Source: Leucobacter musarum subsp. musarum
GTDB taxonomy: Bacteria; Actinomycetota; Actinomycetes; Actinomycetales; Microbacteriaceae
Direction of reading: 5' to 3'
DNA: 64,000 nucleotides
Assembly: GCF_001273845.1 (NCBI RefSeq)
Contig: NZ_JHBW01000064.1
Coordinates: 124,001 to 188,000 of the forward strand
Below, piece by piece: positions 1,838 to 21,643 of this stretch. How positions within the stretch are numbered: position 1 is the stretch's first letter; every line of letters begins with the position of its first letter. The position numbers and the translations under genes were made by a program. Below the pieces are notes generated by a model. It saw only the letters and a list, made by a program, of their open reading frames with translations, was not told the DNA's origin and searched no databases.

Positions 1838-1854
1838 AGTGTCAAAGTGGGACA
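1838..1854 (+). promoter_or_regulatory. Catabolic-regulon operator, copy 1 (upstream of iolD-like gene)
   Basis: AGTGTCAAAGTGGGACA lies 85 bp before the iolD-like start. It is the core of a perfect inverted repeat, AGTGTC-N7-GACACT (1838-1856). It matches the 17-bp motif found before four other genes of this block (consensus TGTNTCAAANTGGNACA), so it is read as the binding site of one shared transcription factor. Confidence 0.65.
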
Positions 1855-1938
1855 CTTCCGACCGACGGCCCAGTGGGAGTCTGAACCGGTACACGGCGGC
1901 CGCGGTCGCCGACCCGCTTCGAACTTTGAGGAGAACCC

Positions 1939-3885
1939 ATGAGCAGCACGGCCGCTGCCGTTGCAGGTATTGGTGACCCGAAGGCGCCCGTGCGGCGTCG
2001 CACCGTCGCCCAGGCGATCATCGAATACCTCCAGGTGCAGTACAGCGAACTCGACGGTGAGCGCCGGCGCTTGATTCCCGGGATGTACGGCATCTTCGGC
2101 CACGGCAACTCCGTGGGTCTTGCGCAGGGTATCGACGAGTACGGCGTCGACTTCCCCCACTATCCGGGCAAGAATGAGCAGAACATGGTGCACGCCGCCA
2201 TCGGTTTCGCCAAGGCCTCGAATCGGGCGGCAACGCTTGCGTGCACCGCGTCGGCCGGTCCGGGTTCCACGAACATGGTGAGTGGTGCAGCCACAGCAAC
2301 GACGAACCGTCTGCCGGTACTGCTCTTCCCCGCCGACATCATCAACAACCGCTTCGGCGACCCGGTGCTGCAGCAGATCGAGCACCCGATCGAGCGCGAC
2401 GTTTCGGCGAACGATTGCTTCCGCCCGGTCAGCCGGTACTTCGACCGCATCACACACCCGGGTCAGCTGCTCTCCACGCTGCCCGAAGCCATGCGCGTGC
2501 TCACCGACCCGGTTGATACCGGCGCGGTTGTCGTCTGCCTGCCGCAGGACGTGCAGGGGGCTGAATTCGACTTCCCCGAGGCGTTCTTCACCCCGCGCGT
2601 GTGGCACATTCGCCGTCGTTCCGCCGTGGAGGAGGAGCTGGCGGGTGCTGCGGAGATCATCGCCGCATCGCAGCGTCCCATCATCGTCGCCGGTGGCGGC
2701 GTGCGCTACTCGAACGCGCAGGAAGCGCTGGCCGAGTTCAGTGATCGCTTCGGCATCCCCGTCGTCGAGACGTACGCCGGCAAGGGCGCGGGCCCGGTCG
2801 GCGCGCTCGGCCTGGGCGGTCTCGGTGTGACGGGCACCGTCGGCAGCAACCAGATTGCGGGCGAGGCCGATTGCGTCATCACCGTGGGTACCCGTCTGCA
2901 AGACTTCATCACGGCGTCGCACTCGATTTTCCGTCACCCCGATGTGCAGATCGTCAACCTGAACGTCGGTGCGTTCGACGCGCACAAGATGGGCTCGTTC
3001 CCGGTCATCGGCGATGCCAAGCGTTCGCTGCTGTCGCTGCAAGAGCGGCTGGCAGAGGCAGGTTTCGCGACGATCGACAGCTACGCGGACGAGATCGCTG
3101 CGGCGCAGGAGGAGACGCGCAAGGTGCGCGAGCACGACCTGCAGGACTTCCCGGACGAGAAGATGAGCCAGGCGCAGGTCATCGAGGTGCTCAACCAGCG
3201 CATCACGGCACAGGATGCACTCGTGCTCGGCTCGGGCGGCGTCGTCGAAGGAATTCACAAGGCCTGGGACCCGTCCAATGGTGCGGAGATCCATTTCGAG
3301 TACGCGAACTCCTGCATGGGTCATGAGATTCCTGCGGGCCTCGGCTACCGCCTCGCGCAGCAGAACACCGACGGTGAGGTATACGTGCTGATCGGCGACG
3401 GCACCTACTTCATGCAGCCGACGGAGCTCGTCACCGCGGTGCAGGAGAACCAGAAGATCATTGTGATCGTCATCGACAACCGTGGGCACCAGTGCATCTG
3501 GCCGCTGCAGGCGGCGAAGGGCGGCGGGCAGGAATTCGGCACGCAGCTGCGCGAGCGTAATCCGATTTCCGGTCGTCTCGACGGTCCGATCGTCGACGTC
3601 GACATCGCTGCGAATGCGGCGAGCATGGGGGCTGCGGCCTGGTCGACCGACACGGTCGAGGAGTTCACCGCGGCACTTGAAGAGGCGCAGTCGGTCTCGG
3701 GCCCGGCCGTGATCGTCGCGAACGTCGAGCAGTTCCGTTACCTGTCGGGCAACGGTGCGTTCTGGGACGTGGGCGTTCCGCTCACCTCGCAGCGCGAGGT
3801 CACCCGCGAAGGCGTGGCCAAGCACGTCGCGGGTCGCGAGCGCCAGAGGTACTACGGCGCTACGGTCGCTCCGAGCGAGCGCTAA
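1939..3885 (+). CDS. iolD: IolD-type ThDP-dependent hydrolase (trihydroxycyclohexane-1,2-dione hydrolase family)
   Basis: A 648-residue thiamine-diphosphate enzyme, the usual length of IolD, which opens the ring of 3D-trihydroxycyclohexane-1,2-dione in myo-inositol breakdown. The N-terminal Pyr domain has YGIFGHGNSVGLAQGI and the catalytic-Glu region KNEQNMVHAAIGFAK (near residue 80). A central Rossmann-like domain follows. The C-terminal ThDP/Mg-binding motif starts at GDGTYFMQPTELVTAVQ and ends at the Asn of IVIDNRGHQ. Start: the ATG has GAGGAG 7 nt upstream. The neighbours lack iolB, iolC and iolE, so the real substrate may be another cyclic dione or keto-acid. A strong hairpin follows the stop. 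Confidence 0.88.
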   Translation: MSSTAAAVAGIGDPKAPVRRRTVAQAIIEYLQVQYSELDGERRRLIPGMYGIFGHGNSVGLAQGIDEYGVDFPHYPGKNEQNMVHAAIGFAKASNRAATLACTASAGPGSTNMVSGAATATTNRLPVLLFPADIINNRFGDPVLQQIEHPIERDVSANDCFRPVSRYFDRITHPGQLLSTLPEAMRVLTDPVDTGAVVVCLPQDVQGAEFDFPEAFFTPRVWHIRRRSAVEEELAGAAEIIAASQRPIIVAGGGVRYSNAQEALAEFSDRFGIPVVETYAGKGAGPVGALGLGGLGVTGTVGSNQIAGEADCVITVGTRLQDFITASHSIFRHPDVQIVNLNVGAFDAHKMGSFPVIGDAKRSLLSLQERLAEAGFATIDSYADEIAAAQEETRKVREHDLQDFPDEKMSQAQVIEVLNQRITAQDALVLGSGGVVEGIHKAWDPSNGAEIHFEYANSCMGHEIPAGLGYRLAQQNTDGEVYVLIGDGTYFMQPTELVTAVQENQKIIVIVIDNRGHQCIWPLQAAKGGGQEFGTQLRERNPISGRLDGPIVDVDIAANAASMGAAAWSTDTVEEFTAALEEAQSVSGPAVIVANVEQFRYLSGNGAFWDVGVPLTSQREVTREGVAKHVAGRERQRYYGATVAPSER

Positions 3886-3905
3886 GTCAGCAGTAGGCGT
3901 GGGCC

Positions 3906-3940
3906 AGACGGGCGGGATCTCTTCGGGATCCCGCCCGTCT
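3906..3940 (+). terminator. Hairpin terminator after iolD-like gene
   Basis: A 14-bp GC-rich perfect stem (3906-3919 with 3927-3940, 7-nt loop) lies 20 bp after the iolD-like stop and 58 bp before the next start. The T tract is weak, so it may terminate partially or stabilise the upstream mRNA. Confidence 0.7.
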
Positions 3941-3997
3941 CCTGCATCAGGCGCCGCACGGCGCTCACCAGATATTCAACGACGAAAGAGAGACATT

Positions 3998-5365
3998 ATG
4001 GGCGCATTCGCGGTCATCAATCCTGCAACCGGTGAGACGCTGGCGGAGTATCCGGCGGCGACGGACGCCGAGGTCGAGGCGGGCATCTCCGCGGCCGACC
4101 ACGCTTACCGCGACTGGGCGCGCACCACCACGCTCGAAGAACGCACGGCTGCTGCGGCGCGACTCGCAGAGCTATTCGAGGAGCGCGCGGAGGAGTTTGC
4201 CGCGATCATCAACCGTGAAATGGGAAAGCCGATCGCGCAGGGCATCGGAGAGACCAAGTTTTCGGGTTCGATCACGTCGGCCTACGCGCGCAAAGCCGCG
4301 GAGTGGCTCGCCGACGACGTGTTGTCGGTCGACGACGGGCTGCGCACGTTCGTGCGCTATCAAGGCATCGGCGTACTGCTCGGCGTGATGCCGTGGAACT
4401 TCCCCGTCTACCAGGTCGTGCGTTTCGCCGTGCCGAACCTCATTCTCGGCAACACGGTGCTGCTGCGGCACGCCTCACAATGCCCCGAATCCGCGCTGGC
4501 ACTCGAGCGCATCTTCCGTGACGCCGGGTTCCCGGAGGGTGCCTATGTCAATCTCTTCGCCACGCACGACCAGATCGCCGACATCATCGCGGACGATCGA
4601 GTGCAGGGCGTCTCGCTCACCGGTTCAGAGCGAGCCGGCGCTGCCGTTGCCGCCCAGGCCGGTAAGCACCTCAAGAAGTGCGTGCTCGAGCTCGGCGGTG
4701 CCGACGTGTTCTTGGTGCTCGACACCGATGACCTCGACCACGCTGTGGAGCATGCCGTGCGCGGGCGCATGGACAACAGCGGTCAGAGCTGCACCGGGTC
4801 CAAGCGCATCGTGGTGCTCGATCAGTACTTCGACGAGTTCTCCGAGAAGTTCGCGCGCGCGCTCGGCGCTCAGTCGCATTCGGCGGGCGACTTCGGGCCG
4901 CTCTCCTCGACCGCAGCAACTCGTGAACTCGCCGACCTCGTGAACGGCGCTGTCGACCAGGGAGCCAAGATTCTCATCGGTGATGGTGATCCGGAGGGCA
5001 ACGTCTTCACCCCGACCATCCTCACCGGCATCACCCCGGCGATGGATGTGTACAGCCAAGAACTCTTCGGTCCGGTCGCGCAGCTGTACCGCGTGAGCAG
5101 CGATGCCGAAGCCATCGATCTCGCCAATTCATCACCCTTTGGCCTCGGCTCGGTGATTATCTGCGACGACCTCGAGCGTGCGGAGCGGGTCGGATCCCAG
5201 CTCGACGTCGGCATGGTCTTCATCGGAGCCGCGGGCCTCAGCGGCGCCGATGTGCCATTCGGTGGCGTGAAGAAGTCGGGATACGGGCGAGAGATGGGCC
5301 AGGCAGGTTTGCTGGAGTTCGCCAACAAGAAGCTGTTCCGTTTCGCAGAGGGGGTCGGTCGATGA
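3998..5365 (+). CDS. NAD(P)-dependent aldehyde dehydrogenase (succinate-semialdehyde dehydrogenase-like)
   Basis: Oxidises an aldehyde or semialdehyde to the acid; 455 residues, a normal length for the GabD-like ALDH branch. The cofactor-binding region has MPWNFPVYQVVRFAVPNL, and SLTGSERAGAAVA is the Rossmann turn. The general base Glu is in LELGGADVF and the catalytic Cys in NSGQSCTG. The last residues, FGGVKKSGYGREMG, are the standard substrate/oligomer loop. The ATG at 3998 has GAAAGAGAG 7-15 nt upstream and matches family N-termini; the reading frame stays open further upstream through the terminator but looks non-coding there. It lies between the IolD-like and IolG-like genes and probably handles a semialdehyde from the same pathway. 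Confidence 0.88.
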   Translation: MGAFAVINPATGETLAEYPAATDAEVEAGISAADHAYRDWARTTTLEERTAAAARLAELFEERAEEFAAIINREMGKPIAQGIGETKFSGSITSAYARKAAEWLADDVLSVDDGLRTFVRYQGIGVLLGVMPWNFPVYQVVRFAVPNLILGNTVLLRHASQCPESALALERIFRDAGFPEGAYVNLFATHDQIADIIADDRVQGVSLTGSERAGAAVAAQAGKHLKKCVLELGGADVFLVLDTDDLDHAVEHAVRGRMDNSGQSCTGSKRIVVLDQYFDEFSEKFARALGAQSHSAGDFGPLSSTAATRELADLVNGAVDQGAKILIGDGDPEGNVFTPTILTGITPAMDVYSQELFGPVAQLYRVSSDAEAIDLANSSPFGLGSVIICDDLERAERVGSQLDVGMVFIGAAGLSGADVPFGGVKKSGYGREMGQAGLLEFANKKLFRFAEGVGR

Positions 5366-5411
5366 TCGCACTCGACCATGTGGGGCCACGGCAATGCGTG
5401 AGGAGCGTGCA

Positions 5412-6425
5412 ATGACTGCAGACCTGTTACGTTTCGGACTCATCGGCACTGGACGTATTGGCCGTGTTCACGCGGCGAACATCGCGGCGAGCCCCCAGAC
5501 CGAACTCGTCGTCGTTGCTGACCCGGTACTCGCGAGCGCAGACGACGTCGCTGTTCGATTTGGCGGAACCACCGTCAGCGACCCGCTCGCGGCGATCGAT
5601 CCCGGCAGAATCGACGCGGTGGTGATTGCGTCACCCACGCCGACCCACATTGAACTCATCACGGCGTGCATTGAGCGGGGCGTCCCTGTCCTTTCTGAGA
5701 AGCCGATCGATCTCGACATGGGCCGCATCGATGCGCTGCGGCCGCGGGTGCGCAGTGCGTCGAGCCCGGTGGCGATCGGCTTCAATCAACGATTCGATCC
5801 GGCCATTGCTGAAGTGCAACGCCGGGTCGCGTCTGGTGAAATCGGCGCACTCGAGCAACTTTCGCTCACGAGCCGTGATCCGGGGCCCCCACCTGCGGCC
5901 TACATCGGAGTATCAGGCGGCATCTTCCGCGATATGACGATCCACGACTTCGATCTCGCGCGCTTTTTCGCGGGTGAGATTGAAGAGGTGACGGCCGTCG
6001 GATCGACGCTCTTCGATTCCGGAGCGCGCGAGCACGATGATTTTGACACTGTGGTCGTGACGCTGAAAGCGCGTTCGGGAGCCATCGTGACTATCACGAA
6101 CTCTCGGCACAGCGCCTACGGCTACGATCAGCGCGTGGAGGCCTTCGGGGGTGGCGGACTGTTGAACGTCGAGAATGTTCCGGCGAGCCACGTTACGGCG
6201 TCAAACTCGGCGCACGCGGCAGCCAGAGGACCCTACATCGAACAGTTTCTCGATCGGTACGCGAGCGCCTACGCGAACGAACTCGATGCGTTCGTGGAGT
6301 TGGTGCACCACGGTGCGTCATCAAGCCCGAACTTCGAGGACGGGCGCGCCGCGCAAGTTCTTGCCGAGGCAGCGCATCAGTCCGCGCGGCTAGGGCGAAC
6401 GGTGCGAACGGACGAGATCGGCTGA
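5412..6425 (+). CDS. iolG: Gfo/Idh/MocA family dehydrogenase, inositol 2-dehydrogenase-like
   Basis: An NAD(P)-dependent polyol/cyclitol dehydrogenase of about 337 residues, the IolG size. The N-terminal Rossmann fold begins FGLIGTGRIGRVHAANIA. The EKP motif (SEKPIDLD) lies near residue 98. The C-terminal domain carries GFNQRFDPAIAEVQRRVASG and SGGIFRDMTIHDFDLARFF, both characteristic of inositol 2-dehydrogenases (catalytic Asp/His in the IHDFD segment). The ATG at 5412 has GAGGAG about 9 nt upstream; an in-frame ATG 18 bp earlier lacks a good site. It follows the ALDH by 46 bp and ends before a strong terminator, so the two probably form one unit. Confidence 0.82.
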   Translation: MTADLLRFGLIGTGRIGRVHAANIAASPQTELVVVADPVLASADDVAVRFGGTTVSDPLAAIDPGRIDAVVIASPTPTHIELITACIERGVPVLSEKPIDLDMGRIDALRPRVRSASSPVAIGFNQRFDPAIAEVQRRVASGEIGALEQLSLTSRDPGPPPAAYIGVSGGIFRDMTIHDFDLARFFAGEIEEVTAVGSTLFDSGAREHDDFDTVVVTLKARSGAIVTITNSRHSAYGYDQRVEAFGGGGLLNVENVPASHVTASNSAHAAARGPYIEQFLDRYASAYANELDAFVELVHHGASSSPNFEDGRAAQVLAEAAHQSARLGRTVRTDEIG

Positions 6426-6444
6426 GCAAAGCCAAACCAGCTTG

Positions 6445-6477: not shown

Positions 6478-6491
6478 TTCATACTCGGGCC

Positions 6492-6508
6492 TGTATCAAA
6501 CTGGAACA
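6492..6508 (+). promoter_or_regulatory. Catabolic-regulon operator, copy 2 (upstream of SDR gene)
   Basis: TGTATCAAACTGGAACA, an imperfect palindrome with TGT/ACA ends, lies 71 bp upstream of the SDR start and directly after a terminator. It matches the shared 17-bp consensus at every defined position. Confidence 0.68.
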
Positions 6509-6578
6509 GCCGATCATTTCGAGACCTTGCTCTACTGGTGCATGAGTCCGTTACGGACAGCGAAGGAGCGATCAGACG

Positions 6579-7343
6579 ATGCAGCGACGATCGGCCAAGA
6601 TCCAGATCGACCGAGCACGCGTGCTCATCACCGGGGCCTCATCGGGCGTCGGAGAAGCGACCGCCAGCCTCTTCAGTGCGCGCGGCGCGAGTGTCGCGCT
6701 ACTCGGGAGGCGCACGACCGAGTTGGAGCGGGTGCGATCGTTGCTGAGCGGCACTTCGATTGCTTTGCCCGTCGATGTCGCTGATGAGGAGAGCGTGATC
6801 GATGCCGTGCATGGCGCGGCCAGCGCGCTCGGCGGCATCGACATCGTGATCAACGCGGCGGGGGTGGCGGCCGCCACCGAGGCGGAGCACATTACCGGCG
6901 ACGCATGGCGAGCGGTGATCGACACCAACCTCTCAGGCACGTTCTACGTCTCGCGGGAGGCGATTCCATACCTGCGGGAGTCGGGAGGAAGCATCGTGAA
7001 CGTGGCTTCGGATCTCGCCGCAATGGGGGCCCCGGGGCTCGTGCACTACTCCGCATCGAAGGCCGGGGTTGTCGGTCTGACCCGAGGCCTCGCGATCGAG
7101 CTCGCACCGCGCATTCGCGTGAATGCTGTCTGCCCCGGCCCGATCGATACCCCCATGATGCAGCAGGGGCTGAGCGTAGCTCCCGATCCGGGGCATGCGC
7201 GGCGAGAGAAAGAGCTCAGCGTGCCACTCGAGCGGTTGTCGACCCCTGAAGAGATTGCGAGGTCGATCTACTTCCTCGCGATTGATGGGACGTTCGCGAC
7301 CGGCGCGGCACTGTATGTGGACGGCGGCACGTCGGCCGCCTAA
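6579..7343 (+). CDS. Short-chain dehydrogenase/reductase
   Basis: A classical SDR of 254 residues. The cofactor glycine motif TGASSGVGEA is near residue 19, NAAG follows at the end of beta-4, and the catalytic Ser (NVASDL) and Tyr-Lys (YSASK) are present. ARG after the second strand (SARGASVALLGRR) suggests either NAD(H) or NADP(H). FabG-like C-terminus: ATGAALYVDGGTSAA. The ATG has AAGGAG 8-13 nt upstream. It is followed after 52 bp by the second hydroxyacid dehydrogenase, with which it shares an operon behind operator copy 2. It probably oxidises a sugar-derived alcohol; the substrate is not identifiable. Confidence 0.87.
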   Translation: MQRRSAKIQIDRARVLITGASSGVGEATASLFSARGASVALLGRRTTELERVRSLLSGTSIALPVDVADEESVIDAVHGAASALGGIDIVINAAGVAAATEAEHITGDAWRAVIDTNLSGTFYVSREAIPYLRESGGSIVNVASDLAAMGAPGLVHYSASKAGVVGLTRGLAIELAPRIRVNAVCPGPIDTPMMQQGLSVAPDPGHARREKELSVPLERLSTPEEIARSIYFLAIDGTFATGAALYVDGGTSAA

Positions 7344-7395: not shown

Positions 7396-8358
7396 ATGTC
7401 CCACCCCCGCGCGATGCTCATCGTGCCCGAAGGGCGACCCGTACCGCCAATGGATTCGTTCGCGAACGAGGCCGAGGTGACGGTCGTCAGGACAGCTGAG
7501 GAGTTCCGGGCAGCGCAGCCCGGCACCGAAATTCTGTTCTTGAACGACTTCCGAACGCCGCTGCTTCGCGAAGTCGGCCCGGGCGATCTGAAGTGGATTC
7601 ATACCTCGAGCATCGGTGTCGATGTACTGCTCACGCCAGAGATTGTGAACAGCGACATTGTGGTCAGCAATTCGCGTGGTGTGTGCGAACGGCCGATCGC
7701 CGAATGGATTCTCGGAGTCATCGTCATGTTCGCGAAAGACCTGCGACGCACCGTTGAGCTGCAGCTCGAGCGCACGTGGCTGCATCGCGAGACAGAACCG
7801 ATCCTTGGCCGCAAGGTACTCGTTGTCGGCCCCGGCCCGGTCGGGCAGGAGACCGTGCTGCTGCTCCGCGGGGCGGGAATGGAGGTGACGGTGGTTGGCC
7901 GCTCGGCCCGCATCGATGATCGCCTCGGCGAGATCCACGCGTTCTCCGAGCTCGATGAGCTCCTCGGCACGGTTGATGACGTCGTATTGACGATGCCGCT
8001 GACCGAGGAAACGCGAGGACTGTTCAACAGTGAGCGATTCGCCATGATGCGTCAGGGGGCGCGACTGGTGAACGTGGGCCGCGGTGCCGTCGTCGTCGAG
8101 CAAGACCTGCTTGACGCCATCGATTCCGGGCGTCTCGCTGGGGCAGCGCTCGACGTGTTCGAGCAGGAACCGCTGCCCGTCGAACACCCTTTCTGGTCAC
8201 GGCCGACGATTCTCGTGTCCCCGCACGCCTCGGGCGACCTCGTCGGATGGCGTGGGCGCGTCGCAGAGTGCTTCGCGGCAAACTTGCGCAAGTGGAAGGT
8301 CGGAGAACCGTTGAACGACGTCGTCGACCTGAAGCGCATGGGGGTCACCGCCGGGTGA
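7396..8358 (+). CDS. D-isomer-specific 2-hydroxyacid dehydrogenase (second copy)
   Basis: NAD(P)-dependent reductase/dehydrogenase of 2-keto/2-hydroxy acids, 320 residues. The Rossmann motif is VVGPGPVGQETVLLL, with Pro replacing the usual middle residue. The catalytic residues are Arg in VNVGRGAV, Glu in EQEPLP and His in SPHASGD. Closest in style to the glyoxylate/hydroxypyruvate-type branch. The ATG has AGGAGGAG 6-12 nt upstream, one of the strongest ribosome sites in the block; the frame remains open upstream but overlaps the SDR end and is not used. Second gene of the SDR unit. It is clearly diverged from the member at 898, so the two may act on different acids. Confidence 0.86.
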   Translation: MSHPRAMLIVPEGRPVPPMDSFANEAEVTVVRTAEEFRAAQPGTEILFLNDFRTPLLREVGPGDLKWIHTSSIGVDVLLTPEIVNSDIVVSNSRGVCERPIAEWILGVIVMFAKDLRRTVELQLERTWLHRETEPILGRKVLVVGPGPVGQETVLLLRGAGMEVTVVGRSARIDDRLGEIHAFSELDELLGTVDDVVLTMPLTEETRGLFNSERFAMMRQGARLVNVGRGAVVVEQDLLDAIDSGRLAGAALDVFEQEPLPVEHPFWSRPTILVSPHASGDLVGWRGRVAECFAANLRKWKVGEPLNDVVDLKRMGVTAG

Positions 8359-8377
8359 TCCTGCAGAATTTCTGACG

Positions 8378-8409: not shown

Positions 8410-8426
8410 TGTTTCAGGGTGGGACA
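8410..8426 (+). promoter_or_regulatory. Catabolic-regulon operator, copy 3 (upstream of APC permease)
   Basis: TGTTTCAGGGTGGGACA lies 66 bp before the permease start. It agrees with the shared consensus except for two central purine changes. Confidence 0.6.
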
Positions 8427-8491
8427 TTCGCGTGCACGTCACCGTATCTAGGGTTACTCTGCAAGCAAGATCGTTCAATGACGAGGATTTC

Positions 8492-9973
8492 ATGACAAGC
8501 GCAACACAAAAAGTCTCAACGGATGAAACGGCTGAAGTCGGTTCCGGTCCCGCGACGAATAAGACTTCGCTCAAGGGGAACATGGGAGTCGGCGAGCTCG
8601 TAATGAGCGTTCTCGCGTTCTCATCACCGTTGACGACAGTAGCTGGGACGCTCCCCGTGCTGCTCATCTTCAGCGGGCAGACCGCGCCGGCCATCTATCT
8701 GCTGCTTACGCTCATGTTGGTCATATTCTCCGTCGGATTTGTTCGCATGAGCCGCAGCGTGAGTAATCCGGGCGGCTTCTACGCATTCGTCACAGCTGGG
8801 CTCGGGAAGCCAGCAGGTCTCGGCGGCGCCCTCCTCGCGTTGGTCGGTTATGTATTCATCGGATTCTTTGCGCCGTCGCTCTTCGCGATCACCCTCCAGG
8901 GGTGGGTCGTCGACGCCCTGAATGGCCCTGACATCCCGTGGTACTGGTACGCGCTCGCTATCATCGCCGTGACCACTTTCCTCGCCTACAACCGCATCGA
9001 CCTTTCAGCGAAAGTGCTGACGACCGTGATGATCTTGGAGGTCGTCGTCGTCGTCGTATTTGACGTCCTCGCATTCGTGAACTCCGACGGTCAAGCTACC
9101 GGGGGACTCGGGCTCGCGCTTCCCAGTTTGACCGACGCAAGTATTGGCCTCGCGCTCCTCTTCGCCGTGGGTAATTTCTTTGGGTTCGAAGCGACTGTGA
9201 TCTACCGTGAAGAGGTCAAGGATCCGGAGCGCACCATTCCTCGGGCGACGTACCTCGCCGTGGTGGGTATCGGAGTGTTTTACGCCATTGCCGCGATCGC
9301 ATACATCGCATATCTCGGTGGAGCGAATGTGCAAGGCGCTGCCGAGGCGAACACCGTGAATCTGTTTGACGATGCGTTGCGCGACCTCGCCGGTGGGATC
9401 TTTGCCGATGTCGCCGTGGTGTTGCTCATGACTTCGATTCTCGCCTCCATGCTCTCGATCCAGAACATTGCTGCGCGCTACAGCTTCTCGCTGGCCGTCG
9501 ACCATGTGCTGCCGCGGGGCTTGGCTCGCGTGCATCCGAAGCATCGTTCGCCGCACCTCTCTGCGCTTTCGGTCGGGCTGCTCTGGGCGGCCGCGACCGT
9601 GCTCTTCTCTGTTATCGGAGTGCCGCCTGAGAACATCTATCCGGTGGCGAGCGGCAGTGGCACGTTCTCCGTGCTGCTGCTCCTCTTCATCACGAGTGTG
9701 GCAATCTTCGTGTTCTTCCTGAGACGAGGGTCACGAGGCAATACCGCCGCCTGGAAAGTGCTGTTGACCCCCGCGATCAGTGCGGTCTTCTTCGGTGGGG
9801 TGACGTACTTGGCAATTACCAATTTCTCCTCACTCATCGAGGGCTCGGTCGGGATGACGGTGATCTTCATGTCGTTCACATTCGCGCTCTTCCTCGGCGG
9901 CATCGCATACGCGGTGTATCTGCGTCGACGGAAGCCGGAGGTGTACGCGCGCCTGGGACGCCAGAGCGTGTAA
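8492..9973 (+). CDS. APC superfamily permease
   Basis: A 12-14-helix secondary transporter of the amino acid-polyamine-organocation superfamily, 493 residues. The N-terminus is hydrophilic, then [19 protein letters not shown] opens the first helix. SNPGGFYAFVTAGLG is the conserved third-helix region and [20 protein letters not shown] the hallmark APC loop after helix 6. The ATG at 8492 has GAGG 6-9 nt upstream. It stands alone between two terminators and has its own operator, so it is a separately controlled importer. A strongly similar paralogue lies at 18160-19617. The substrate is not readable; an amino acid or related amine is typical of the family, which does not obviously fit the sugar enzymes around it. 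Confidence 0.87.
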   Translation: MTSATQKVSTDETAEVGSGPATNKTSLKGNMGVGELVMSVLAFSSPLTTVAGTLPVLLIFSGQTAPAIYLLLTLMLVIFSVGFVRMSRSVSNPGGFYAFVTAGLGKPAGLGGALLALVGYVFIGFFAPSLFAITLQGWVVDALNGPDIPWYWYALAIIAVTTFLAYNRIDLSAKVLTTVMILEVVVVVVFDVLAFVNSDGQATGGLGLALPSLTDASIGLALLFAVGNFFGFEATVIYREEVKDPERTIPRATYLAVVGIGVFYAIAAIAYIAYLGGANVQGAAEANTVNLFDDALRDLAGGIFADVAVVLLMTSILASMLSIQNIAARYSFSLAVDHVLPRGLARVHPKHRSPHLSALSVGLLWAAATVLFSVIGVPPENIYPVASGSGTFSVLLLLFITSVAIFVFFLRRGSRGNTAAWKVLLTPAISAVFFGGVTYLAITNFSSLIEGSVGMTVIFMSFTFALFLGGIAYAVYLRRRKPEVYARLGRQSV

Positions 9974-10061: not shown

Positions 10062-10078
10062 TGTCTCAAAGCGGTACA
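10062..10078 (+). promoter_or_regulatory. Catabolic-regulon operator, copy 4 (upstream of ABC importer)
   Basis: TGTCTCAAAGCGGTACA lies 104 bp upstream of the ABC ATPase start. It matches the consensus at all but one defined position. Confidence 0.68.
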
Positions 10079-10181
10079 AAACCGGGCGCGTCGTGACGCT
10101 GATAGTTGAGTAACCGCAGAAGCCGCGTCGCACACGGCGTGAGTTCAGCGGGGCCAGAGATCCATCAACGACGAGGATGAC

Positions 10182-11054
10182 ATGACCGACGCACCCTCAG
10201 CGACCACTCCGCTGGTCGCCCTCAACAACATTCAGAAAACCTTCGGGGCCGTAACCGCGCTTCGGGGAGTGAGCATTGACGTGCTGCCGGGGGAGACGTT
10301 CGCCCTGCTGGGCGACAACGCCGCCGGCAAGTCGACGCTCATGAAAGTGCTCACGGGCGTGTACCAGCCCGATCACGGCACGATCCGCATGGACGGAGAC
10401 GCCGTGTCGTTTCCGAGCCCCGCGGTGTCGCGTTCCGCCGGCATCGAGATGGTTTACCAGGACTTCGCGCTCGCCGACAATCTCGACGTGCGCACGAACA
10501 TCTTCCTGGGACGCGAGCCGCAGAAGAACATCATCGGGCCCCTGGTTCGCGTGATCGACAAGAAAAAGATGGAGCGCGAGACGAACCGCGTGCTCGAGCG
10601 CCTCGACATCCCGATCAATCCGAGACTCAAGGTGAAGCGGCTGTCGGGCGGGCAGAGACAGGCCGTGGCCATCGGCCGCGCGCTCGCGTTCGACGCGAAA
10701 CTCATCATCATGGACGAGCCGACCGCCAACCTCTCCGTTGCGAAAGTCGACAAGCTCATCGAGGTGACGCAGAAGCTCAAGGACCTCGGCATCGCCGTGA
10801 TCATCATCACGCACCGTCTCGATGAGGCGTTCGCCGTCGCCGACCGTTGCGCCGTCATGCGGCAGGGCGAGGTCGTGGGCCGATTCCGCATGGACGAGGT
10901 CAGCGAGTCTGAAGTGGCGCACCTGATCTCACAGGGCACTCTCGACGGTTACGAAGCGCCCGAGGTCGACATCCCCGCCGAGCGCCGCCGCATCGGCAGC
11001 ACCTCGGATTCCCACCCAGCAGAGCAGGCACCGACGATCGGGAGCGACGCATGA
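10182..11054 (+). CDS. Sugar ABC importer ATP-binding protein (single-domain, FrcA/RbsA-like)
   Basis: Energises a carbohydrate importer; 290 residues, so one nucleotide-binding domain rather than the duplicated RbsA form, as in fructose-type (FrcA) systems. Walker A is GDNAAGKST near residue 46. The signature LSGGQRQAVAIGRAL, Walker B LIIMDEPTANLSV and the switch His in IIIITHRLDEAF are all present. The C-terminal ~30 residues are a polar tail. The ATG has GAGGATGAC just upstream. It overlaps the permease start by ATGA (11051-11054), so the two are translationally coupled. Expressed from the unit behind operator copy 4. Confidence 0.92.
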   Translation: MTDAPSATTPLVALNNIQKTFGAVTALRGVSIDVLPGETFALLGDNAAGKSTLMKVLTGVYQPDHGTIRMDGDAVSFPSPAVSRSAGIEMVYQDFALADNLDVRTNIFLGREPQKNIIGPLVRVIDKKKMERETNRVLERLDIPINPRLKVKRLSGGQRQAVAIGRALAFDAKLIIMDEPTANLSVAKVDKLIEVTQKLKDLGIAVIIITHRLDEAFAVADRCAVMRQGEVVGRFRMDEVSESEVAHLISQGTLDGYEAPEVDIPAERRRIGSTSDSHPAEQAPTIGSDA

Positions 11055-12043: not shown

Positions 12044-12081
12044 CCCCCTCCCCGCTGTACCCACTTTCGAAAGGAACACCC

Positions 12082-13053: not shown

Positions 13054-13069
13054 CGCGACGAACCACAGG

Positions 13070-13110
13070 ACGGGGTGCCCTGCGCGAGCAGCGGTGCCCC
13101 GTCCTGTTTT
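13070..13110 (+). terminator. Imperfect hairpin terminator after the binding-protein gene
   Basis: A 7-bp outer stem (GACGGGG with CCCCGTC) encloses an inner CTGC/GCAG helix separated by an internal loop, and a TGTTTT run follows. It is placed ~17 bp after the stop of the importer operon. Confidence 0.6.
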
Positions 13111-13116
13111 GGTACA
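13100..13116 (-). promoter_or_regulatory. Weaker candidate operator, copy 6 (upstream of flavin/Fe-S dehydrogenase)
   Basis: Read on the minus strand, TGTACCAAAACAGGACG matches about 10 of 14 defined positions of the shared motif, with one well-conserved half. It sits 60 bp before the start at 13176, the same distance range as the good copies. It overlaps the T-run of the preceding terminator, so the match could be chance. Confidence 0.35.
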
Positions 13117-13175
13117 CGTAGGGCACCCCGACGGCTGCATACACTGCGGGAGTAAGCAGTGATTGGGGTACGTGT

Positions 13176-16136
13176 ATGTCGAATCTGACGATTGCAGCGG
13201 CGGATGCGACGCAGCTGCTGGCCGAACTGCGGGAGCGCGGCATAGACGTCGACGATGCGCCCCGCCGACGGTCGGAGTACTCCTTCGACGCATCCAACTA
13301 TCGCATCCGCCCGCAAGCCGTCGTCTTCCCACGAACCGTGGACGACGTGAGATCGGTGATGCGCGCAGCACGCGCCGCCGGCGTGCCGGTGACCACCAGG
13401 GGAGGCGGCACCTCGATGGCGGGCAACGCCGTCGGTCACGGGATCATTGTCGACCTGTCGCGCCGCTTCATCGACGTAGACACGATCGATCTCGACGACC
13501 GCTCCGTGTGGGTCGGAGGCGGGGTGGTGCTCGGCGAACTGCGCACACTCGTTGAACGCATCACGGCGGGCGCACTCACTTTCGCTCCTGACCCGTCGTC
13601 GCTCAGCCGTGCGACGGTCGGTGGTTCGATCGGCAATGATGCGTGCGGCAACCACTCCGTCGCCTACGGTCGAATGACGCAACATGTGCGCGAAGTCGAA
13701 GTGGTCACACTCGATGGCGCCCACCTGCGGCTGGCGCGCGGAAGCATCACCGCGGTGGATCCTCAGGATGCGCAGTCGACCGCTCGCGCAGAGCAGCTCA
13801 CTGCAGAACTGCGCGACCTGGCGCAGGCGCATCTCGCGGCGCTCCGCGTCGAACTGCAGACCATTCCACGGCAGGTGTCGGGTTACCACCTCGGTCATTT
13901 GCTCCCCGAAGAGGGGTTCGACGTCGCAGCGGCCCTGGCCGGCAGCGAGGGAACGATTGCCGTCATCACTCGTGCCCGAGTCGGGCTGGTTCCTCGACCG
14001 GCGACCACCGCGCTGCTGTGCCTGGGGTACGCCAATACCGTTGATTCCGCGCGCGACGTGATGGATATCTTGGCCAGTAAGCCAACCGCGATCGAGGGAC
14101 TCGACCGGTCGATCGTGGAGATCATGCGACATCGGCGAGGGCCGGAAAGCGTCGACGGGCTGCCGAGCGGAGAAGCCTTCCTCATGGTGGAGTTCTCCGC
14201 CGATGATGTCGCCGAGGCGCGTGAGCGCTGCGAGCAGCTGCTCGTCGCTCTGGGTGCGGCTGGCCGCGTCACCGACTCCGCGGTCGTCACGGATCCTGCG
14301 GCCCGCGCGAAGCTGTGGCGCGTGCGCGAAGACGGGGCGGGGCTCTCATCTCGCCGGGTCGATGGCAAGCAGACCTGGCCGGGCTGGGAAGACTCGGCGG
14401 TGGCCCCCGACCGGCTCGCCGACTACCTGTCGGAGTTGCTCCCGCTCGTCGAGAAGTACCAGTACTCGGCATTCATGTACGGCCACTTCGGCGCAGGGTG
14501 CGTGCACATGCGACTCGACTACGACCTGCGGAGCGAACACGGCAGGCGTGACTTCGAGGCCTTCACGCGGGAGGCCGCTGATCTCGTCGTCGCACACGGA
14601 GGGTCGCTCTCGGGCGAGCACGGCGACGGTCGCGCCCGCAGTGAGCTCCTCAGCGTGATGTACTCGCCCGAGATGCTCGACCTGTTCGCCGAATTCAAGC
14701 GGGTGTGGGATCCGGATAATCTGCTCAATCCCGGCATCATCGTCGACCCTGACGCCTTCACGGACGCGCTCGCACTGGAAGGAACCCCTGCGCCCGGCCC
14801 GACTCTGGGAGAACCATCGGTCATCACCGAGACGGTGACCATGGGCCTCTCGATCCAGTCGCGCACCCGTCTGCCGCTCGCGAGCCCCTACGTCGGCAAT
14901 GCGCACGCCTGCATTGGCGTCGGCCGCTGTCGCGCGACCAGCGGTGGCTTCATGTGCCCGAGTTACCGCGCGACGAAGGATGAGAAAGACAGTACGCGCG
15001 GTCGGGCGCGCGTACTCCAAGAGCTCACCCGTGCGAACAAGAACAGCCTCGACGGCTGGTCGTCGCCCGAGGTGCGCGACGCCCTCGACCTGTGCCTCTC
15101 GTGCAAAGCGTGCTCGAGCGATTGCCCGACCGGAGTCGACATTGCCGAAGCAAAGTCGGAGCTCATCGACGAGCACTACCGAGGTCGCATTCGACCATTC
15201 ACGCACTACTCGATCGGTTGGCTGCCCCGCTGGCTGCCGCTGATCGGCTGGTTCTCGAGCATCGCCAACATCGGGGCCCGGATCGGACTGCTGCGCCGGG
15301 TCGCCGATTGGCTCGGTGTGAGCGCGAATCGGCGCCTGCCGGCCTTCCGCTCGCGCAGCGATATCCGGAGACATCTCGACGAGGCGGCGTTTGACTCGAA
15401 CGGTGAGATCCTCATCTTCGCCGACAGCTTTACAAAGGCATTCCGCCCAGAAGCGATTCCCGCTGCCGCGCGCGTGCTCGGCGACACCGGCCGAACGGTC
15501 GGATGCACTGCAGACGCCTGCTGCGGCCTCACCTGGATCTCGACCGGTCAGCGAGATGGCGCTCGCCGCAGGCTCGAGCGCCTGATCCGACGGTTCGACG
15601 ACGGGACAGATCGAGATATCGTCGTGCTCGAGCCCAGTTGCGCCGCAGCTATCCGCGACGAGGGGCCGAAGATGGTGGGCGGCGAAGCCGCTGACCGCGT
15701 GGCTGCACGAGTGCGCTCGTTCTCGGTCGCGGTCGACGAAGCCGTGCAGCGCGGCTGGACCCCGACAGCACCAGCGCCCGAGGCAGCGGTGCTGCAAACG
15801 CACTGCCACGAGCACGCGGTCTTTGGATCCGGCGCGCAGAAACGCGTACTCGGTGCGTGGGGGGTGCCGCAGATTGTGGAGTCTTCATCGTGCTGCGGTG
15901 TTGCGGGCAACTTCGGCTTCGAGTCCGAGCACTTCGACATGTCGATGCAAGTGGCCGAGCATTCCATTGTGCCGGCACTGCGGCAGGCCCCCGAGGGGGC
16001 GCTCGTGCTCACCGATGGATTCAGCTGCACCATGCAGGTGTCGCAGATCGATCCTGACCTGTCGGGTCAGCACCTCGCACTCGCGCTCGACCCAGCGCGC
16101 ACCTCTCCCGAAGAACATCAAGAAGGCAGCGAATGA
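13176..16136 (+). CDS. Fused FAD-linked oxidase / Fe-S dehydrogenase (GlcD-GlcF or D-lactate dehydrogenase-like)
   Basis: A 986-residue two-part membrane-associated respiratory-type dehydrogenase for a 2-hydroxy acid. The N-terminal half is a VAO-type FAD domain with the PP-loop RGGGTSMAGNAVGHGIIVDL (residue ~70) and SLSGEHGDGRARSELL near 490. The C-terminal half has ferredoxin-like cysteine clusters, CIGVGRCR...CPSYR and CLSCKACSSDCPTGVD, and two CCG-type motifs (CCGLTWISTG, SSCCGVAGNFGFE), which bind Fe-S centres in GlcF/LldE-like subunits. Fused forms of this type are known in actinobacteria. It overlaps the next gene by ATGA, so the two are coupled. It could consume the product of the two D-2-hydroxyacid dehydrogenases; the exact acid is unknown. 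Confidence 0.88.
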   Translation: MSNLTIAAADATQLLAELRERGIDVDDAPRRRSEYSFDASNYRIRPQAVVFPRTVDDVRSVMRAARAAGVPVTTRGGGTSMAGNAVGHGIIVDLSRRFIDVDTIDLDDRSVWVGGGVVLGELRTLVERITAGALTFAPDPSSLSRATVGGSIGNDACGNHSVAYGRMTQHVREVEVVTLDGAHLRLARGSITAVDPQDAQSTARAEQLTAELRDLAQAHLAALRVELQTIPRQVSGYHLGHLLPEEGFDVAAALAGSEGTIAVITRARVGLVPRPATTALLCLGYANTVDSARDVMDILASKPTAIEGLDRSIVEIMRHRRGPESVDGLPSGEAFLMVEFSADDVAEARERCEQLLVALGAAGRVTDSAVVTDPAARAKLWRVREDGAGLSSRRVDGKQTWPGWEDSAVAPDRLADYLSELLPLVEKYQYSAFMYGHFGAGCVHMRLDYDLRSEHGRRDFEAFTREAADLVVAHGGSLSGEHGDGRARSELLSVMYSPEMLDLFAEFKRVWDPDNLLNPGIIVDPDAFTDALALEGTPAPGPTLGEPSVITETVTMGLSIQSRTRLPLASPYVGNAHACIGVGRCRATSGGFMCPSYRATKDEKDSTRGRARVLQELTRANKNSLDGWSSPEVRDALDLCLSCKACSSDCPTGVDIAEAKSELIDEHYRGRIRPFTHYSIGWLPRWLPLIGWFSSIANIGARIGLLRRVADWLGVSANRRLPAFRSRSDIRRHLDEAAFDSNGEILIFADSFTKAFRPEAIPAAARVLGDTGRTVGCTADACCGLTWISTGQRDGARRRLERLIRRFDDGTDRDIVVLEPSCAAAIRDEGPKMVGGEAADRVAARVRSFSVAVDEAVQRGWTPTAPAPEAAVLQTHCHEHAVFGSGAQKRVLGAWGVPQIVESSSCCGVAGNFGFESEHFDMSMQVAEHSIVPALRQAPEGALVLTDGFSCTMQVSQIDPDLSGQHLALALDPARTSPEEHQEGSE

Positions 16137-16957
16137 GTACGCGCATCAATCTGGCCCAAGCTCTGCACGAGGCCCACTCGGCGGCTGATGTCATCGCCCG
16201 CCTATCGGGAGTCAAACAGCATGACATCGTGCTGACTCTGGGAAGCGGATGGCGCGAAAGCGCTGCGTCGCTGGGAGACGTGGTCGCGGTGCTTCCTGCC
16301 GCGGAGATTCCGGGTTTTTCCGGGGGGTGGGTGCCGGGCCATTCTGGGGTGATTCAGTCGATACGTCTCGAGAGCGGCGCGCACGCGTTGGTGATCGGTG
16401 CACGCGCGCACCTCTACGAAGGCAGAGGAGTGCAGGCCGTTGCGCACGGCATGCGCACCGCAGCAGCAGCCGGGGCTCGCACTGCAGTGCTCACGAATGG
16501 CGCCGGCGGAATCGACCCGACGTTCTCCGTCGGCGACGCCGTGCTCATCAGTGACCATCTCAACCTCACCGCCGTCTCCCCGCTCATTGGCGCTGATTTC
16601 GTCGACTTGACCGATCTGTACAGCGAACGGTTGCGTTCGATCGCGCGGCAGGTCGAACCCGGTCTGCAGCAAGGCATCTACGTGCAACTTCCGGGCCCAC
16701 ATTTCGAAACACCCGCAGAGATCCGTGCGCTCAGCATTCTCGGGGGTCAGCTGGTGGGGATGTCGACAGCGCTTGAGGCGATCACCGCCAGATCACTCGG
16801 GATGGAGGTGCTTGGGGTGTCGCTCGTGACGAACGCCGCGGCCGGGCTGAGCGGTCCGATCGATCATCTCGATGTTCTGGCCGAGGGCCGAGCAGCCGAG
16901 TCGAAACTTGCTCTCACGTTGAAGCGACTGGTCGACGCACTGCCGCTCCCAGGCTAG
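16133..16957 (+). CDS. Purine-nucleoside phosphorylase
   Basis: Phosphorolysis of purine nucleosides to base and (deoxy)ribose-1-phosphate; 274 residues, the trimeric PNP length. It shows LTLGSGW near residue 30 (phosphate loop), PGHSG with the phosphate-binding His, and RAHLYEG. NGAGGIDP, LPGPHFETPAEIRAL and GMSTALEAITAR form the nucleoside site, and VTNAAAGLSG carries the Asn expected to contact the purine base (Asn243 in human PNP). It overlaps the flavin dehydrogenase by 4 bp and abuts the convergent trpB stop by only 6 bp. Its presence in a hydroxy-acid/cyclitol block suggests a nucleoside or an unusual glycoside is one of the inputs; that is inference. Confidence 0.9.
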   Translation: MSTRINLAQALHEAHSAADVIARLSGVKQHDIVLTLGSGWRESAASLGDVVAVLPAAEIPGFSGGWVPGHSGVIQSIRLESGAHALVIGARAHLYEGRGVQAVAHGMRTAAAAGARTAVLTNGAGGIDPTFSVGDAVLISDHLNLTAVSPLIGADFVDLTDLYSERLRSIARQVEPGLQQGIYVQLPGPHFETPAEIRALSILGGQLVGMSTALEAITARSLGMEVLGVSLVTNAAAGLSGPIDHLDVLAEGRAAESKLALTLKRLVDALPLPG

Positions 16958-16963
16958 GCAGGC

Positions 16964-18151: not shown

Positions 18152-18159
18152 CGCTCCGC

Positions 18160-19617: not shown

Positions 19618-19648
19618 GAGATTCACTCGCTGTCGTCGTCATTGAAGA

Positions 19649-19682
19649 CCTGGCGCACCGCACGCGGATGCGGTGCGCCAGG
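19649..19682 (-). terminator. 14-bp perfect hairpin between dehydratase and permease genes
   Basis: The stem (19649-19662 with 19669-19682, 6-nt loop) is GC-rich and perfect, 52 bp after the dehydratase stop on the minus strand. It lacks a clear T run. No copy of the shared operator lies between it and the permease, so it may act as a partial terminator or mRNA-stabiliser within one operon. Confidence 0.55.
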
Positions 19683-19733
19683 AGGAGAAATACTGTGGAG
19701 AGGGCTGAGGCGCGCGGCCTCAGAAGCGGCCGG

Positions 19734-21494
19734 TCACCAGCCGCCCTGCCAACCGGTGAAGAGACCGTAGGGCAATCGCTGCGGTTCTTCATCGGGAATG
19801 GCGTGCAAGAAGTCGAAGTCGCAGCCCTCATCGGCCTGCGTCACATGGTCGACGAAGAGACGCCCGTAGCCACGGTTGTACTTGCGGGGCGGCAGCTCGA
19901 CCTCGGCAAGGCGCCGTTCCAGTTCATCTGCCGGAATGTCGAGATCCAGGCGTTGGGTGGAGACGTCGAGCACGATCGGGTCGCCGTCGCGCACCACAGC
20001 CAGCGGGCCGCCTGCCGCCGCCTCGGGCGAAACGTGCAGGATCGTGGTGCCGAAGGCGGTGCCGCTCATGCGAGCGTCCGAGATGCGTACGACGTCGCGG
20101 ATGCCACGCTTCAAGAGCTTTTCCGGGATGGGGAGCATGCCCCACTCGGGCATGCCCGGTGCGCCGGCCGGGCCGCAATTGCGCAGCACCAGCACCGAAT
20201 CCTCGGTGATGTCGAGATCGGGATCGTCGATGCGTCGACCGAGGTCGGTCATGTCATCGAAGACGACCGCGGGCCCGCGATGCGTGAGCAGCTCGGGGCT
20301 CGCCGCACTGCGCTTGATAACCGCGCCTTTCGGTGCCAATGATCCGCGCACCACCGCGATGCCGCCGGAGGCGTCAAAGGGGGTCTCGAGCTTCGAAATG
20401 ACCTCGCCATCGGGCTCGGGCGCGTTCGCGAACCCGGCTGCGAGTGATTCACCGGTCACCGTAATGGCGTCGCCTTTGAGCAGCGGTGAGAGTTCTTTCA
20501 GCACTGCGCCGATGCCGCCGGCATTGAAGAGCTGCTGCACGAGGTATTCGCCAGAGGGCCGCACGTTCACGATGCGCGGCGTGCGCTCCGAGATCTGGTG
20601 GAAGCGGTCGAGATCGAGCTCGTACCCGACTCGGCGTGCGAGCGCGAGCAAGTGCAGCACGGCGTTGGTGGAACCGCCCACCGCCATGAGCAGGGTAATC
20701 GCGTTGTCGAACGCATCGGGAGTGAGGATCTCGCGCGGCGTCGGCCCGCCGGTGAGCGCCATCTCGACGGCACGTCGTCCGGTCGCCTCGGCCGCTTGCG
20801 CCCGCCGGGCGTGCACGGCGGGGATCGCTGCCGTCGACGGCAAGCACATGCCGAGCGCCTCGGTGATCGAGGTCATCGTCGAAGCGGTGCCCATCTCGCT
20901 GCAGTGACCTGCAGTCGGCTTTGCTGACGCCTCCAATTCGTCGAAGTCGGCCTGCGTCATGCGACCAGCGCGCAACTCATCGGCGTACTTCCACGTATCG
21001 GTACCGACGCCGAGCTGCTTCCCTCGGAAGACCGCGGGCTCCTGGGGGCCGCCTGTCAGCATGATCGTGGGGATGTCGGCGCTTGCCGCACCCATGAGCT
21101 GGGCAGGCACCGTCTTGTCGCAGCCGCCGAGCAGCACGATCGCATCCAGCGGATACGCGCGGATCGATTCTTCGACGTCCATTGCCATGAGGTTGCGGAA
21201 CTGCATGGCGGAGGGCTTCATGAGGCTCTCGCCGAGTGAGATGGTCGGGAATTCGAGCGGCAGTCCGCCCGCCATCAACACTCCGCGCTTCACCGAGTCG
21301 GCGAGCAGCTTGAAGTGAATGTTGCAATTGACGAGTTCCGACCAGGAGTTTGCGATGCCGATCACCGGTCGATCCTTGATGGCGAAGCCCGAGAAGCCCT
21401 CTGCCTGGATGGCGGTGCGGTGCACGAAGCCTGTGAGATCGTGCGGGGCGAACCAGCGCGCGCTGCGGAGGTCGGCCTGGGGTGAGTCTTCCAT
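19734..21494 (-). CDS. IlvD/Edd family dehydratase, aldonate-dehydratase-like
   Basis: A Fe-S cluster/Mg-dependent dehydratase of about 586 residues. The three cluster cysteines are visible in SELVNCNIHF, LLGGCDKTVP and TAGHCSEMGTASTM. The run RGVLMAGGLPLEFPTISLGE and the catalytic region RISDARMSGTAFGTTILHVS place it with L-arabonate/xylonate/gluconate-type dehydratases rather than housekeeping IlvD. It would turn an aldonic acid into a 2-keto-3-deoxy acid. Start: the ATG at 21494 (12 nt after GAAGGA) and one at 21506 are both possible. It is divergent from a Gfo/Idh dehydrogenase, with operator copy 5 in between, and is first in the dehydratase-permease-trpB set. Confidence 0.85.
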   Translation of the reverse strand: MEDSPQADLRSARWFAPHDLTGFVHRTAIQAEGFSGFAIKDRPVIGIANSWSELVNCNIHFKLLADSVKRGVLMAGGLPLEFPTISLGESLMKPSAMQFRNLMAMDVEESIRAYPLDAIVLLGGCDKTVPAQLMGAASADIPTIMLTGGPQEPAVFRGKQLGVGTDTWKYADELRAGRMTQADFDELEASAKPTAGHCSEMGTASTMTSITEALGMCLPSTAAIPAVHARRAQAAEATGRRAVEMALTGGPTPREILTPDAFDNAITLLMAVGGSTNAVLHLLALARRVGYELDLDRFHQISERTPRIVNVRPSGEYLVQQLFNAGGIGAVLKELSPLLKGDAITVTGESLAAGFANAPEPDGEVISKLETPFDASGGIAVVRGSLAPKGAVIKRSAASPELLTHRGPAVVFDDMTDLGRRIDDPDLDITEDSVLVLRNCGPAGAPGMPEWGMLPIPEKLLKRGIRDVVRISDARMSGTAFGTTILHVSPEAAAGGPLAVVRDGDPIVLDVSTQRLDLDIPADELERRLAEVELPPRKYNRGYGRLFVDHVTQADEGCDFDFLHAIPDEEPQRLPYGLFTGWQGGW

Positions 21495-21626
21495 TCTGGT
21501 ATTCATTCCTTCTCGTTGGGATGAGAAGACGAATGCCTCGGTGGAGCCGACATGACGTTCGAACTCCATTGTCAGCATTGCGTCGCCGATTGCACCCCAG
21601 TACAGCAACTGGCGAGCATCGGAACC

Positions 21627-21643
21627 TGTTCCAGATTGAGACA
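21627..21643 (+). promoter_or_regulatory. Catabolic-regulon operator, copy 5 (between divergent dehydratase and Gfo/Idh genes)
   Basis: TGTTCCAGATTGAGACA; its reverse complement TGTCTCAATCTGGAACA matches the shared consensus closely. It lies 88 bp before the Gfo/Idh start and 133 bp before the dehydratase start, so it can serve both directions. Confidence 0.66.

Follow-up and report, generated by a model that had tools for sequence, protein, structure and literature searches.

A 17-bp palindrome before the units of a conserved catabolic gene block in Leucobacter musarum subsp. musarum and its candidate Fis-type regulator

The 17-bp palindrome that recurs through a gene block of Leucobacter musarum subsp. 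musarum is very likely the operator of one conserved catabolic regulon, in which a 601-aa Fis-type protein would activate at least seven sigma-70-type promoters without sigma-54. The data behind this reading are the sites themselves, their spacing, their conservation and their co-occurrence with the regulator gene. Sequence analysis further suggests that the protein binds these sites, acts as an activator rather than as a repressor and responds to an inducer. An uncharacterised regulator subfamily would in this way gain a list of targets together with predictions of its operator and promoter geometry, and about twenty loosely annotated genes would be brought together into one testable pathway.

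The window refers to the whole 64-kb stretch of DNA that was analysed. A search of it with the motif of the preliminary description, TGTNTCAAANTGGNACA, allowing up to three mismatches, gave six matches at five places (the site at 21627 matches on both strands), compared with a mean of 1.18 matches by chance, and none of 100 shuffled sequences reached six. All five sites were found where they had been placed, at 1838, 6492, 8410, 10062 and 21627, with one, zero, two, one and one mismatches, respectively, the last on the minus strand (Table 1). The palindrome TGTNNCANNNTGNNACA is a better description of the five sites than TGTNTCAAANTGGNACA; compared with the palindrome TGTNYCANNNTGRNACA, three of them are perfect and two carry one mismatch. 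The claim that they are intergenic and precede start codons also holds, the distances from the end of the site to the start codon being 84, 70, 65, 103 and 88 bp, with a further 120 bp separating the site at 21627 from the divergent dehydratase gene. At the junction equivalent to the 1838 site, both of two related Leucobacter genomes, G158 and G185, carry GGTATCAAAGTGGGACA. Two further sites, C92:120352 and C92:113169 (two mismatches), lie beyond the window. The earlier figure of at least five units is an undercount: there are six strong sites, a two-mismatch site retained by most relatives and one half-site.

This half-site, at 13100, had been described as a weaker copy. Its right half, TGGNACA, and the downstream TACACT are kept in all three Leucobacter genomes compared (the window genome, G158 and G185), although its matrix score is only 9.1 and it is not among the TGTNTCAAANTGGNACA matches with up to three mismatches. 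Neither element was seen at the same gene in G036. By eye, a GC-rich inverted repeat at 13068-13104, the end of which is overlapped by the weak site, looks like a terminator for the ABC importer unit, and a similar inverted repeat is present in G158 and G185.

Table 1 Features of the gene block (plain numbers are positions in the window; C92 marks contig coordinates)
Feature	Position	Strand	Remarks
Candidate regulator, 601 aa	G000:C92:111261-113066		10.9 kb before first base of window; Fis-type HTH and reduced AAA+
PucR-family regulator	C92:121736-123253		Inside block, just before window
Operator site AGTGTCAAAGTGGGACA	1838-1854	+	-10-like GAGTCT 1877-1882; upstream of IolD/ALDH/IolG unit
TPP enzyme, IolD family	1939-3885	+	TIGR04377, 742.9 bits (cut-off 715)
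Aldehyde dehydrogenase (ALDH)	3998-5365	+	PF00171
IolG-like GFO/IDH/MocA dehydrogenase	5412-6425	+	TIGR04380, 358 bits (cut-off 355)
Operator site TGTATCAAACTGGAACA	6492-6508	+	Extended -10 ttgcTCTACT, hexamer 6531-6536; same sequence in G158
SDR dehydrogenase	6579-7343	+	
D-2-hydroxyacid dehydrogenase family protein	7396-8358	+	PF02826
Operator site TGTTTCAGGGTGGGACA	8410-8426	+	-10 TAGGGT 8449-8454
APC-type amino acid permease	8492-9973	+	PF13520
Operator site TGTCTCAAAGCGGTACA	10062-10078	+	-10 GATAGT 10101-10106; same sequence in G158
Ribose-type ABC importer	10182-13053	+	ATPase 10182-11054, permease 11051-12043, binding protein 12028-13053
Weak half-site CGTCCTGTTTTGGTACA	13100-13116	+	TACACT 13140-13145
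FAD/Fe-S D-2-hydroxyacid oxidoreductase	13176-16136	+	
Purine nucleoside phosphorylase	16133-16957		Follows FAD/Fe-S oxidoreductase gene
IlvD/Edd-family (sugar-acid type) dehydratase	19734-21506	-	PRK06131, 823 bits (cut-off 539); divergent from 21627 site
Operator site TGTCTCAATCTGGAACA	21627-21643	-	Between divergent genes; extended -10 ttgcTGTACT, hexamer 21604-21599 on minus strand; same sequence in G158
MocA2, GFO/IDH/MocA dehydrogenase, levoglucosan dehydrogenase-like	21732-22915	+	NF052479, 285.6 bits, under cut-off 650

In the whole 3.44-Mb genome, TGTNYCANNNTGRNACA occurs without mismatch at four places, all within the 25 kb of C92:120352-145643 and one of them 3.6 kb outside the window, while its reversed control occurs without mismatch at none. 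A looser palindrome gives a fifth perfect match, C96:78058 (L022:8059), which is the sole one outside the block and counts against the reading. Once mismatches are allowed, the counts approach those of the reversed control (19 places against 15 for the looser palindrome with up to one mismatch, and 83 against 81 for TGTNYCANNNTGRNACA with up to two), suggesting that only strong matches, or matches judged in context, carry information; use of the motif on its own as a genome-wide detector was dropped below the perfect-match level. A matrix was built from the six sites of the window genome, a seed on which all scores depend. Over 104 kb (C92:84001-188000) these six sites come out on top, as they must, with scores of 19.3-24.0 (15.9-22.8 in leave-one-out scoring), followed by C92:113169 in seventh place at 13.9 and by an unrelated match at 11.8; in other stretches of the genome chosen for near matches, the best scores were 17.6, 16.6 and 14.7. 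The genome scan had been proposed as a check, and it confines the perfect TGTNYCANNNTGRNACA matches to the block; the best Fis-type HTH hit of the genome lies at the block's edge.

In the part that precedes the window, the block extends from the candidate regulator gene through genes for a D-2-hydroxyacid dehydrogenase, a class III aminotransferase, a FAH-family hydrolase, HyuA, HyuB and MocA1 to the PucR-type regulator gene. Within the window, the nucleoside phosphorylase gene is followed on the minus strand by genes for TrpB, a second permease and the IlvD-type dehydratase, and then by the divergent MocA2 gene. Sites are placed before the first D-2-hydroxyacid dehydrogenase gene (C92:113169), MocA1 (C92:120352) and the genes for IolD, the SDR dehydrogenase, the APC permease and the ABC importer, as well as between the IlvD-type dehydratase gene and MocA2. 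The IolD of the block is the third in the genome to score over the cut-off, the other two being encoded on C91, and the IlvD/Edd dehydratase reaches 766 bits with PRK13016, under the cut-off of 882. The earlier remark that these genes share no known pathway is a fair one. Elsewhere in the window, the minus strand at 39866-50335 encodes a nonribosomal peptide synthetase of 3489 aa, in which condensation, adenylation and carrier stretches each occur three times alongside a thioesterase.

The sequences downstream of the sites share a fixed geometry. Promoter rows were compiled with exclusion of gene matches of less than 30% identity or starting past query residue 60; rows identical over 70 bases were counted once and a divergent site was assigned to the better-scoring gene only. 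From the resulting 62 rows, removal of ten whose gene identity did not exceed 45% left 52, and removal of one Pseudomonas row lying 249 bp from its gene left 51. A -10 hexamer is found 22 bp downstream of the site, at bases 23-28 (TCTACT, TGTACT, TAGTGT, GATAGT and similar sequences), with TG two bases upstream in many rows. Base 28, with which the -10 hexamer ends, is T in 48 of the 51 rows, including all seven of the window genome; the mean over nine gene groups is 0.85, a value reached by none of 20,000 circular shifts by group. Among 25 sites outside these rows, 15 of which come from loci of 33% regulator relatives, 18 show the T on one or both strands, more than at any other of 29 positions (next 15, mean 8.9). 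By eye, the MocA2 side of the 21627 site carries a -10-like TAACCT one base further out, as does the 13100 half-site with its TACACT in all three Leucobacter genomes compared. No conserved -35-like hexamer was found in the base frequencies over the 45 positions after the site. If the hexamer is taken as -12 to -7, the site spans about -51 to -35.

Site and hexamer are also the parts of these promoters that are best kept in G158 and G185 (ungapped comparison, with the divergent site compared on its MocA2 side). Identity to G158 is 113/119 in the site (seven sites) and 40/42 in the hexamer, against 85/154 in the spacer and 110/210 in the upstream stretch; the corresponding values for G185 are 94/102 (six sites) and 32/36, against 65/132 and 89/180. 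Overall, identity amounts to 89-95% in the site and hexamer, 70-71% in the downstream stretch and 49-55% in the spacer and upstream stretch.

No regulator gene was seen in the window, as had been stated (few proteins were scanned from 24 to 64 kb), and the candidate lies upstream of it (Table 1). Its product gives by far the best of four PF02954 (Fis-type HTH) hits in the genome (E 2.9e-10), and best matrix scores within 1.5 kb of the other three are 8.7, 4.6 and 6.7. Pfam analysis places the HTH at residues 554-592 (PF02954, 9.5e-10, over the cut-off), and the preceding AAA+ part matches AAA_lid_14 over its cut-off (2.9e-10) and Sigma54_activ_2 under its cut-off. The protein retains the Walker A motif and the AAA+ lid, and GAFTGA is absent from it and from all 16 aligned relatives. 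The earlier guess of a Fis-type regulator with GAF and HTH parts is borne out for the HTH; for the GAF part, Pfam gave no GAF or PAS domain up to E 10, under filters that drop most matches above 0.1. A structural model of an 85% Leucobacter relative (mean pLDDT 79.7, pTM 0.43) gave ZraR (1ojl) as best Foldseek match (E 2.8e-10), alongside other AAA+ activators, and, in fifth place, an N-terminal fragment of DhaR (4lrx_C, E 3.3e-9). The candidate does not fit the sigma-54-dependent activators of the NtrC kind: it lacks GAFTGA, and a search of the genome returned no sigma-54 DNA-binding domain, in agreement with a survey that lists Actinobacteria without any sigma-54 system (PMC3162934). On sequence grounds, the candidate is best read as a new member of a known, DhaR/TyrR-like kind of regulator. 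Autoregulation was rejected for the window genome, as neither G158 nor G185 retains the two-mismatch copy upstream of the regulator gene (C92:111118) or keeps any other site there; it may occur in other genomes, given a good site 192 bp upstream of the regulator's own gene in Brevibacterium (L049).

Conservation was examined at several taxonomic depths. Among 150 genomes of the family, the regulator was matched at E 1e-30 in seven, the close ones being the window genome and two others (58-59%), in which the block is syntenic over 17 of the gene families compared and the sites recur at equivalent, although not all, junctions. The prediction that sites would be found in syntenic blocks of related genomes is in line with this recurrence, which, together with the confinement of perfect matches to the block, supports the claim that they define one regulon. 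In G036, no site over the cut-off precedes the first D-2-hydroxyacid dehydrogenase gene or MocA1, and G185 has lost both the SDR gene and its site, the 6492 equivalent. Perfect sites occur in 16 of the 150 genomes, with four, three and one in the three that have a close orthologue and one or two each in 13 of the other 147; two of these 13, G026 and G133, encode regulator relatives of 28%.

A scan of named genomes gave 25 loci, comprising 17 orthologues (54-85%, including a pair from the same Arthrobacter strain), six relatives of about 33% and two weaker ones. The orthologues belong to Leucobacter, Arthrobacter, Paenarthrobacter, Brevibacterium, Pseudolysinimonas, Nocardia, Amycolatopsis and Streptomyces, and the 33% relatives to Arthrobacter, Pseudolysinimonas and Pseudomonas. 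A site scoring at least 12 lies before a block gene in 16 of the 17 orthologue loci, although those of L051, L052 and L054 score just 13.3-14.5, not far over the best unrelated score of 11.8, and the sites of L042 are the same as those of L041. In the Streptomyces locus L056, block genes accompany the regulator orthologue, but no site exceeds the threshold.

Within the genus, 54 genomes yielded seven regulator matches at E 1e-30, namely five orthologues of at least 54% and two relatives of 31-34%. The five orthologue carriers have four, four, four, three and one perfect sites, the genomes of the two relatives have none, and four of the 49 genomes without an orthologue have one each (Fisher test, 4e-5 for at least one site and 1.6e-5 for at least two, counted over related genomes that owe the block to common descent). 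Of the 16 sites in these five genomes, one, G184:C9:87147, is on a contig other than that of the regulator and HyuB. HyuB itself, matched at E 1e-100 in 14 of the 54 genomes, is at least 86% identical in the five orthologue carriers and 46-53% in the nine others. This co-occurrence suggests that regulator, genes and sites travel together, and leaves undecided which protein binds.

In the mechanism that we propose, the regulator has a probably sensory part at its N-terminus and a Fis-type HTH at its C-terminus, together with a reduced AAA+ domain that lacks the sigma-54 contact loop. On sensing the inducer, a regulator dimer would occupy TGTNYCANNNTGRNACA at about -51 to -35, adjoining RNA polymerase with its housekeeping sigma factor and aiding the use of a weak -10 located 22 bp downstream. 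The activator would thereby take the place where sigma region 4 would need a -35. At least seven promoters could be switched on in this fashion, driving the D-2-hydroxyacid dehydrogenase/aminotransferase/FAH hydrolase/HyuAB operon, MocA1, the IolD unit, the SDR unit, the APC permease, the ABC importer and the IlvD-type dehydratase.

Activation is favoured by the combination of a fixed spacing, no conserved -35 and mostly poor -10 hexamers, and a -10-like hexamer at constant spacing is consistent with promoters of the sigma-70 type. A repressor covering the -35 and freed by the inducer would also fit a site that spans about -51 to -35, since a protein sitting there could obstruct RNA polymerase, but there is no conserved -35-like hexamer in the 45 positions after the site, and the constant distance to the -10 is what contact with polymerase would be expected to impose, whereas a repressor site should, as an argument, tolerate more positions; repression is considered unlikely. 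An origin of the recurrence in chance or local composition could appeal to the near-equal counts of motif and reversed control at up to two mismatches. It would have to accommodate the shuffling result, the location of all four perfect matches in one block, the conservation and the spacing, and its probability is close to nil.

The sites could instead belong to the PucR-family protein, the regulator encoded within the block, rather than to the Fis-type protein. Its gene occupies the same place in five of the 16 orthologue loci long enough to include it (L041, L042, L050, L051 and L052). However, in the remaining 11 (L043-L048 and L053-L057) IolD directly follows MocA1 with no PucR gene between them, as judged at the locus only, and ten of these keep at least one site, nine of them before IolD. 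Moreover, two Pseudomonas loci that encode a 33% relative of the Fis-type protein carry sites of this kind, with no PucR match in the 21 kb covered, and a TGT-ACA palindrome fits a Fis-type HTH, as in the TyrR box quoted in a passage of PMC4894688. An assignment to PucR is improbable on this evidence, and the Fis-type activator is preferred.

The substrate of the pathway can be approached through the genes under the predicted control of this activator. In the Brevibacterium locus L049, a site precedes a sugar-lactone oxidase gene followed by a gluconate-type permease gene, pointing to a sugar acid. Nitrogen is suggested by HyuAB, the aminotransferase and the amino-acid-type permease. Our guess is an iminosugar or an aminocyclitol. 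A bolder and rather speculative proposal is that an undescribed pathway for a cyclic sugar or cyclitol containing nitrogen, such as these two, is encoded by the regulon, and that the site with its 22-bp spacing serves this subfamily of sigma-54-independent Fis-type activators as a general promoter code, both in actinobacteria and in Pseudomonas. Such a pathway would proceed by import, oxidation by MocA/IolG-type dehydrogenases and ATP-dependent lactam opening by HyuAB, and then by nitrogen loss through the class III aminotransferase, IlvD-type dehydration and cleavage by IolD- and FAH-type enzymes. The neighbouring genes in Pseudomonas and Arthrobacter gave no pathway name. The canonical myo-inositol pathway was rejected because the genome has other IolD copies, the two on C91, and because IolE has no match on C92; genome-wide, no IolE match scored over the cut-off.

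Several known systems share features with the block. The resemblance to the iol regulon lies in IolD- and IolG-family enzymes over the NCBIfam cut-offs, and the block differs from it, besides the points above, in its HyuAB, aminotransferase, FAH hydrolase and IlvD-type genes. No title or abstract opening in the open-licence literature was found to deal with the regulator, the operator or the gene block. MimR of mycobacteria is reportedly the subject of published work. The absence of a detectable sigma-54 from the genome offers a clean setting for asking how a relative of sigma-54 activators works with the housekeeping polymerase. DhaR, TyrR and VpsR are described, in the portion of PMC3162934 consulted, as such relatives with a damaged GAFTGA; like our candidate, E. 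coli DhaR and TyrR combine AAA+ with a Fis HTH and lack GAFTGA, their partner being sigma-70. The TyrR site, given in an extract of PMC4894688 as TGTAAA-N6-TTTACA, is a TGT...ACA palindrome like the block operator. Unlike DhaR and TyrR, the candidate has an N-terminal part without a Pfam sensor domain, the 17-bp TGTNYCANNNTGRNACA and a catabolic regulon in an actinobacterium with no sigma-54 found. In Rhodococcus sp. BCP1 and relatives, a Fis-family regulator gene lies beside prmABCD with a palindrome over the -35 of the presumed target, according to an excerpt of PMC4428276, and the link of this regulator to its target is ascribed to sequence analysis only in a review (PMC8784404). By these descriptions, BCP1 resembles the block in having an actinobacterial Fis-family regulator and a palindrome over the -35, and differs in its target, propane monooxygenase. 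Finally, HyuA and HyuB of the block score best with models of caprolactamase (476 and 294.5 bits), the CapAB enzyme of Pseudomonas jessenii (PMC6061476), both far under the cut-offs of 1000, which sets them apart from CapAB.

A few further observations concern the relatives. In a Leucobacter genome (L077 and L078, on G181 C11 and C3), the block is split, with the genes from the regulator to ALDH on one contig, those from IolG to the FAD/Fe-S oxidoreductase on the other, and sites on both. TrpB of the block matches G158 (L073/L074) in two overlapping pieces, which suggests a frameshift there. In Arthrobacter sp. StoSoilB13, the regulator orthologue (60%) is carried on a 1.0-Mb plasmid (L072, NZ_AP024649.1:693918-735669). 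A second regulator of about 33% identity lies near its own SDR or ALDH genes, permease genes and similar palindromes in L058-L063 (Arthrobacter, Pseudolysinimonas and Pseudomonas), and lumazine-synthase-like and luciferase-like proteins are encoded nearby in the Pseudomonas locus L062.
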